Source of the DNA: Massilia sp. H6
GTDB taxonomy: Bacteria > Pseudomonadota > Gammaproteobacteria > Burkholderiales > Burkholderiaceae_D
Length of the DNA: 64,000 nt
Assembly: GCF_024802625.1 (NCBI RefSeq)
Contig: NZ_CP103371.1
Location: 2,418,001 to 2,482,000 of the forward strand
Reading direction: 5' to 3'
The notes below the pieces were generated by a model that was not told where the DNA came from, did not search any database, and saw nothing but the letters and a program-made list of their open reading frames with translations. Made by a program: the position numbers and the translations under genes. Numbering within the stretch: position 1 is the stretch's first letter; the number at the start of each line of letters is the position of its first letter. Positions 62,146-63,897 of this stretch are shown here, piece by piece.

Positions 62146-62856
62146 ATGCTGGCGCGCCGCCGCAGCCTTTTTTATTACGGTGTGCTCGCTGCCTGCCTGG
62201 GCGCCGCCGCACCTACTGCTGCTGCTTCTGCTGCTGCTTCTGCTACTGCTGCTGCTGCTGCGGCGGCAACGCCCGCCCAGCTCGCGGCCTTTTTCCGCGC
62301 AGTCGAACTCGACGACGTGAACAAGGTCGAGCGCCTGCTCGCAGGGGGAATCGATCCGAACGAGATCAATCCGGTCGGCGGTGAGCCGGCGCTGGTCATT
62401 GCCGTGCGCGAAGATGCGATGCGGGTGCTGGCGACGCTGGTCGCCCAACCCGGCATCGACTTGCAGGCGCAGGCCATGAACGGCAACACCGCGCTGATGA
62501 TGGCAGCCTACAAGGACAGGCGGCAGGCCGCCGCCATCCTGCTGGCGCGCGGGGCCACGATCAAGCGCAGCGGCTGGACCGCGCTGCACTATGCCGCGGC
62601 CAGCGGCAGCGCGCCGATCGCGCGCCTGCTGATCAAACAGGCGGCCAACCTCGATGCCGTGTCGCCGCGCGGGAGCGGCGCGTATACTCCCCTGATGATG
62701 GCGGCGCGCGAAGGCAAGGCCCAGGTGGCAAGGCTGTTGCTCGAGGAAGGGGCCGACCCTGCGCGCACGAATGGCGAAGGGCTCAGCGCGGCCCGGATCG
62801 CCGAACGGGCCGGCCATACCGATCTCGCGGCCGCCATCGACGCCTTCCAGCCTTGA
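62146..62856 (+). CDS. Exported ankyrin-repeat protein
   Basis: A 236-residue secreted ankyrin protein. The ATG at 62146 (MLARRRSLFYYGVLAACLGAAAPT) begins a basic-hydrophobic signal peptide followed by an Ala/Thr/Ser tract (about residues 21-43). Four to five ankyrin repeats follow, with helices such as GNTALMMAAYKDRRQAAAILLARGA, WTALHYAAASGSAPIARLLIK and YTPLMMAAREGKAQVARLLL. It starts 5 bases after the tatD stop. Periplasmic ankyrin proteins serve as inhibitors or adaptors; the partner is unknown. Confidence 0.88.
   Translation: MLARRRSLFYYGVLAACLGAAAPTAAASAAASATAAAAAAATPAQLAAFFRAVELDDVNKVERLLAGGIDPNEINPVGGEPALVIAVREDAMRVLATLVAQPGIDLQAQAMNGNTALMMAAYKDRRQAAAILLARGATIKRSGWTALHYAAASGSAPIARLLIKQAANLDAVSPRGSGAYTPLMMAAREGKAQVARLLLEEGADPARTNGEGLSAARIAERAGHTDLAAAIDAFQP
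62206..62270 (+). repeat. Low-complexity GCT/GCN tract coding for alanine
   Basis: A run of GCT-type triplets with periodic TCT and ACT gives an Ala/Ser/Thr-rich stretch after the signal peptide of the ankyrin protein. Such tracts can change length by slippage in steps of three bases and leave the frame intact. Confidence 0.8.
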
Positions 62857-62982: not shown

Positions 62983-63897
62983 ATGCTGAACGAACGCGAA
63001 ATCGAAAGCTGCTACCTGGGGCAGTTCATTCCAGTCCATTACCATCACAATATGTTGATGGACCAGAACCGGATGCACAGCTTCAAGTCCGCCATCCACT
63101 ACGCGGTCAAGCCGGGCGCGAAAGTGCTGGAACTGGGCGGCGGCACCGGCGTGCTGTCGTTCTTCGCGGCGCAGGCGGCCAGCAAGGTCTATTGCGTGGA
63201 GTTCAATCCCGACATGGTGCAGGAAGCGCGCAAGTTCCTGGCGATGAACCCGAACGGCCACAAGGTCGAAGTCATCCACGCCGACGCCTTCGATTACCTG
63301 CCGCCCGAGCCGGTCGACATCGTCATCTGCGAAATGATTCATGTCGCCATGCTGCGCGAAAAGCAGGTCGAAGTCATCGAATCGTTCAAGCGCCGCTACC
63401 TGGCCAAATTCGGCGGGCCGCTGCCGATCTTCCTGCCGGAAGCCGTGATCATGGCGGCCCAGCCAGTCGAGCACGAATACGATTTCGAAGGTTTTTACGC
63501 ACCGATCGTGCAGTTCCAGGAGACCAACGTGATCTATCCCGGCACGGTCGAGCTGGCGCAGCCGGCGGTATACAGCGTGATCGACTTCAGCCAGCCGGTT
63601 GATAACGTGTTTTCGTGGGAAGGCGCGCTCGTGGTCGAGACCAGCGGCACGCTCAACGCGATGCGCTTCATTACCAAGAACGTGCTGGCGATCGTACCGG
63701 AAGAATCGAACACGATCGACTGGCTCAACCACTACATGACACTGCCACTGGCCCAGCCGATCAAGGTGGTGGCGGGTGACATGCTGCACATCGCCTTCCA
63801 GTACCGGGCCGGCGGCTCGATTCCTTCACTGCAGGCTTCGCTGCGCGCGCAGGTCGTCAACCAGCGCGTGACGCAAGAGGCCCCCGCCTACGCGTAA
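62983..63897 (+). CDS. Class I SAM methyltransferase resembling protein arginine methyltransferases
   Basis: A 304-residue SAM-dependent methyltransferase. Motif I is VLELGGGTGVLSFFAAQAA (about 48-66), with post-I VEFNP. The helix before it, HNMLMDQNRMHSFKSAI, resembles the PRMT segment HxxMLxDxxRxxxYxxAI. The two acidic residues Glu117 and Glu126 (CEMIHVAMLRE) have the exact 9-residue spacing of the PRMT double-E loop, and a beta-barrel-like C-terminal half (IYPGTVELAQPAV to KVVAGDMLHIAF) follows. The PRMT THW motif corresponds here to IDW (245-247). Arginine methylation is suggested but not proven. Confidence 0.8.
   Translation: MLNEREIESCYLGQFIPVHYHHNMLMDQNRMHSFKSAIHYAVKPGAKVLELGGGTGVLSFFAAQAASKVYCVEFNPDMVQEARKFLAMNPNGHKVEVIHADAFDYLPPEPVDIVICEMIHVAMLREKQVEVIESFKRRYLAKFGGPLPIFLPEAVIMAAQPVEHEYDFEGFYAPIVQFQETNVIYPGTVELAQPAVYSVIDFSQPVDNVFSWEGALVVETSGTLNAMRFITKNVLAIVPEESNTIDWLNHYMTLPLAQPIKVVAGDMLHIAFQYRAGGSIPSLQASLRAQVVNQRVTQEAPAYA

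Follow-up and report, generated by a model that had tools for sequence, protein, structure and literature searches.

The 304-amino acid (aa) protein encoded at positions 62983-63897 of the window (the whole 64,000-nucleotide stretch of Massilia sp. H6 DNA that was analysed) is homologous to the protein arginine methyltransferases (PRMTs), shares with them both an overall fold and a set of conserved residues, and is specified by a gene that is itself conserved among related bacteria. A SAM-dependent methyltransferase of PRMT fold served best to explain the data as a whole, and was accorded about an even chance of being correct. To judge from its sequence, the protein would most likely be an active guanidino-N-methyltransferase of arginine, protein-bound arginine being considered the more likely acceptor, with its prospects finely balanced, and free arginine a less likely one, weighted low. 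The sequence-only reading, which had described the gene as a bacterial PRMT-like methyltransferase, was supported overall, the match to PRMTs extending to the fold, the barrel, the double-E loop and the residues of the SAM site. The relevant features of the window are as follows.

62146..62856, + strand: upstream neighbour, an ankyrin-repeat protein with a signal-like N terminus; start codon uncertain.
62983..63897, + strand: PRMT-like methyltransferase gene, 304 aa, ATG to TAA (open frame, orthologues, dN/dS).
63043..63072, + strand: N-terminal helix motif HHNMLMDQNR, residues 21-30 (alignment to PRMTs, conservation).
63124..63150, + strand: motif I VLELGGGTG, residues 48-56, predicted to bind SAM (alignment to PRMTs, family alignment).
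63199..63201, + strand: E73, the post-motif-I acid, SAM-binding in PRMTs (alignment, conservation).
63331..63360, + strand: double-E loop EMIHVAMLRE, residues 117-126, with E117, E126 and the invariant H120 (alignment, conservation).
63463..63552, + strand: shortened dimerisation-arm region, residues 161-190 (profile-profile gap, low-confidence model stretch).
63550..63858, + strand: C-terminal beta-barrel, residues 190-292 (profile-profile match of the C-terminal half, model strands, structural alignment).
63715..63723, + strand: IDW (residues 245-247), occupying the position of the THW loop in PRMTs (alignment, profile-profile comparison).

The open reading frame at 62983-63897 is a real gene subject to purifying selection: comparisons with four relatives gave dN/dS values of 0.08-0.21, and orthologues 77-93% identical to its product were located in at least 80 genomes, mostly of Massilia, Telluria, Duganella, Janthinobacterium and Rugamonas. 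Within the genus the gene was present in 58 of 62 genomes (56 of the 58 good ones), and occurred as a single copy in all assemblies but one, in which it seems to be split over two contigs. Throughout the wider family it was recorded in 54 of 145 genomes and 14 of 44 genera, being widespread in the Oxalobacteraceae; more sporadically, at 37-63% identity, it occurs in other Burkholderiales and elsewhere in the Proteobacteria. Since the gene is missing from a few genomes of the genus that are listed as near complete, and one truncated copy was encountered (L160:1126-1755, - strand), it is conserved but probably non-essential; the reading frame of the truncated copy enters unrelated sequence just past the Rossmann half, suggesting that the gene has been disrupted there. 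No relative was detected on viral contigs and no match in phage records, and plasmid records yielded only four partial matches of less than 33% identity, of which three carry the annotation L11 methyltransferase and the fourth that of a peptide synthetase.

When solved structures were searched with phmmer, the top 58 matches were all PRMTs or PRMT-type chains in which both Glu residues were aligned, the best being plant PRMT10 (E 2e-14) followed by PRMT6, with PrmA far weaker (4.5e-4). An HMM search against the PRMT family had been proposed in the sequence-only reading as a check, and with a profile built from 22 diverse members of the family, whose identity to the Massilia H6 protein ranges over 45-83%, the best 60 matches among solved structures were all PRMTs (best E 1.1e-20). 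Because these structure-database alignments span mainly the Rossmann half, the barrel half was tested separately. Comparison by hhalign of a 24-member family profile with 16 bacterial PRMT-like proteins gave a match of 99.95% over residues 18-275, in which the DW of IDW fell on the HW of THW; the C-terminal half alone gave 94.9% with a score of 56.7, for which 30 column shuffles reached at most 21.3 and a reversed profile 14.8. Deployment of the barrel half alone in an hmmsearch of solved structures returned no PRMT, the match being apparent only by profile-profile comparison. One of the 16 bacterial proteins, L118, matches PRMT1/Hmt1 over approximately its whole length (E 1e-41) and is, to judge by that match, a bona fide PRMT; used in turn as a query on the Massilia genome, its only full-length match was the gene at 62983-63897 (positions 13-277, E 1.6e-16).

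Pfam recognised generic methyltransferase domains only, PRMT5 scoring 17.0 bits and thus falling below its cut-off of 22.9. Two more specific identities were considered and rejected. The best NCBIfam match, CpaM (NF043040), scored 53 bits over residues 20-138 when the cut-off is 180 bits, and is limited to the Rossmann part of a model of 216 positions; PrmA, the ribosomal protein L11 methyltransferase (TIGR00406), scored 24.6 bits over the core only, with a cut-off of 183 bits.

Alignments generated both by phmmer and by profile comparison placed E117, E126, E73, D27 and R30 column for column on the corresponding PRMT residues, and M24 likewise. The two Glu residues nine apart that had been recognised as following the PRMT plan (CEMIHVAMLRE) thus proved to align with the double-E and to be invariant, not only in the 22 diverse members but in 80 close orthologues, and the HxxMLxDxxR...AI helix held up equally well, the protein containing the segment H21-x-x-M24-L25-x-D27-x-x-R30 ... 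A37-I38, of which M24, D27 and R30 are aligned and conserved. These three residues are the equivalents of M48, D51 and R54, respectively, of PRMT1. Among the 22 members, E117, E126, R30, E73, H120, D246, W247 and M24 are invariant, and D27 nearly so. No pair of Glu residues at the exact PRMT spacing was seen among the non-PRMT class I methyltransferase matches, the nearest case (L136) having two Glu ten apart as against nine in PRMTs.

The THW motif with its active-site His is absent, as is the TSP segment that precedes it in PRMTs: the family reads I/V-D-W at this place, with one member reading E-W by a single-residue shift. The replacement of THW by IDW noted previously was accordingly borne out, with I245-D246-W247 aligned there. 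H120 may have assumed a role that belongs to the THW His in PRMTs, a suggestion offered as a hypothesis because generic class I methyltransferases often carry a His nearby, at the L-H position after strand 4, as does the generic class I methyltransferase L136.

That same resemblance forms part of the case for regarding the protein as one of PRMT fold that methylates some other group (another side chain, a nucleotide or a small molecule), H120 then being the common class I His; also consistent with such a function are the replacement of THW by IDW and the fact that generic methyltransferase models perform best in Pfam. However, the invariant Glu pair at exact PRMT spacing, D27, R30, M24 and the barrel would be difficult to account for unless the substrate were of guanidinium type, and this alternative was judged improbable. 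Much more improbable still is a non-catalytic, PRMT-like partner or scaffold protein: the altered THW loop would suit it, as would the divergent L117 with its lack of both Glu residues, but the SAM-site and double-E residues tested are invariant in the main family, the gene is under purifying selection, and the genome contains no other PRMT-like gene that could serve as its partner. L117 itself (37% identity) has lost both Glu residues of the double-E loop together with part of motif I and retains IDW, losses that point to a possible change of function in that protein.

Structure prediction, also proposed beforehand as a check, gave an AlphaFold2 model of residues 10-292 with a pLDDT of 68.5 and a pTM of 0.66 when built from a trimmed 80-sequence alignment, an earlier model from 49 close sequences having been poorer (pLDDT 61.4). 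The closest structural counterparts of the better model were PRMTs, which made up all 50 of the entries listed (Z 15.2-16.4, rmsd 3.1-4.0, 230-243 residues); the alignment spanned both halves of the model, and Foldseek agreed. The barrel-like C-terminal half claimed from the sequence was thereby confirmed, by this structural alignment and by the profile-profile score of 56.7 alike. Of the dimerisation arm and barrel expected in a predicted PRMT structure, the barrel was present, and the arm region is shortened and modelled with low confidence: the profile-profile gap indicated that the protein lacks approximately 16 of the arm residues of PRMTs, the GFD segment among them, and the arm region fell below a pLDDT of 50 in the better model, as did the double-E loop in both models. 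Since the arm is shortened, and since THW was sought and the His found to be replaced by Asp, the protein is described as PRMT-like, a member of a PRMT-fold sister clade rather than a canonical PRMT.

As to activity, the identity of arginine as the acceptor and of a protein as the substrate, and the type of product formed, we infer the following scheme. SAM would be held in the N-terminal Rossmann domain. The substrate, most likely an arginine residue of one of the bacterium's own proteins, would lie with its guanidinium between this domain and the C-terminal barrel, clasped by E117 and E126, so that the methyl group could be transferred to a terminal guanidino nitrogen. A Met at the PRMT1 M48 position, a residue that influences product type in that enzyme (PMC8619983), would favour mono- and asymmetric dimethylation over symmetric dimethylation. 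Activity could survive without the THW His because the PRMT1 H293S substitution by itself leaves MMA and ADMA formation unaffected (PMC8619983). Against reading the protein as a PRMT stand the conversion of the THW His to an invariant Asp, the loss of TSP, an arm that is shortened even though that of PRMT1 is required for dimerisation and activity (PMC8619983), matches in Pfam that are generic only, and the want of a conserved partner or substrate gene outside the Oxalobacteraceae. On the sequence evidence, the sister clade probably works like a PRMT. The fuller proposal, that it is a bacterial PRMT-fold clade which methylates arginine in endogenous proteins as a conserved function of the Oxalobacteraceae, with Asp in place of the THW His, a His in the double-E loop and a reduced arm, is advanced tentatively as a possibility.

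With the type I PRMTs (PRMT1/3/6, CARM1 and plant PRMT10) and PRMT7/9 the family shares the Rossmann core, the post-motif-I Glu, the double-E at exact spacing, the N-terminal helix residues and the barrel; it differs from them in having IDW for THW, an invariant His in the double-E loop, an arm some 16 residues shorter, a total length of 304 aa, and a bacterial origin. Canonical PRMT-like proteins of bacteria (for example L118 and, among longer ones, L122, L124, L125 and L127) match the family over the full length of the profile and have in common with it the residues D27 and R30, the acid after motif I and, for the most part, the double E, whereas most have HW where the family has DW, carry G, D, S or N at the place of H120, and keep the GFD arm segment. 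An unrooted tree confined to bacterial sequences, namely 25 rows of the family and the 16 bacterial PRMT-like rows, divided the two sets by a branch with support of 100/100 and a long stem of 2.29, so placing the family as one clade separate from the canonical bacterial proteins.

Synteny was scored by tblastn with the neighbours present in the Massilia window. The ankyrin-repeat gene and tatD accompanied the gene in 81 of the 82 close loci examined, within a tmk-holB-pilZ-tatD neighbourhood, and an lpxO gene followed in 30 of the 82; outside the Oxalobacteraceae none of these neighbours was shared, and no conserved partner or substrate gene was apparent. A functional linkage to the ankyrin-repeat gene was considered and not accepted as proven, the two occurring together in 81 of the 82 close loci and in none outside the Oxalobacteraceae. 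Near the start of the ankyrin-repeat gene, a CTG trinucleotide repeat of approximately 15 copies (62216-62261) codes for an Ala-rich stretch.

These surroundings bear on whether the acceptor might be free arginine or another small guanidine compound rather than a protein. A precedent is provided by SznE/StzE of streptozotocin biosynthesis, a bacterial arginine-guanidino methyltransferase that forms N-omega-methyl-L-arginine (PMC11705231), a likeness drawn by description, and a small substrate would suit the shortened arm. Moreover, in one lineage of two genomes (L141:7028-9538, - strand; L142:6085-8562, + strand) the methyltransferase forms the C-terminal domain of a protein of 825-837 aa, the first 540 or so residues of which resemble a PLP-dependent enzyme by eye only, and a group II PLP decarboxylase gene adjoins the fused gene. 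The PLP-like nature of the fused domain is a matter of appearance because, in L141, it matches no model in Pfam or NCBIfam and no solved structure (PDB); a small-molecule role in this lineage is at most hinted at. However, SznE/StzE resides in a biosynthetic cluster and the Massilia gene does not, being surrounded in the Oxalobacteraceae by housekeeping genes, and neither an arginine deiminase gene nor one of DDAH type (PF02274) occurs in the genome. Methylation of a small guanidine compound was consequently thought rather unlikely, and protein-bound arginine retained as the preferred acceptor.

PRMT-like genes are already known in bacteria, as exemplified by SznE and the predicted PRMTs of Legionella; for arginine in proteins, the known bacterial cases are Rv1988 and these predicted Legionella PRMTs (PMC10117894). 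Arginine methylation in bacteria is nonetheless little explored, and few such bacterial enzymes have known targets. No description of the present clade was found in the open-access literature searched on bacterial PRMT-like families, and it is apparently undescribed so far. With the gene conserved in culturable genera (Massilia, Duganella and Janthinobacterium), the question of its function is directly testable; if the enzyme is active, PRMT chemistry would be seen to tolerate both a missing THW His and a dimerisation arm much of which has been lost.

Other bacterial relatives displayed further variations. L094, L129 and L132 form a bacterial PRMT-like group of their own, which lacks HW and in which Asp and Tyr occupy the positions of the two Glu residues. 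In L119, L122, L124, L125 and L127, canonical PRMT-like domains (HW) are located at the C-terminal end of longer bacterial proteins, plasmid relatives being annotated as ribosomal L11 methyltransferase; L119, at least, has N-terminal repeats that appear TPR-like by eye, recalling the architecture of PRMT9.
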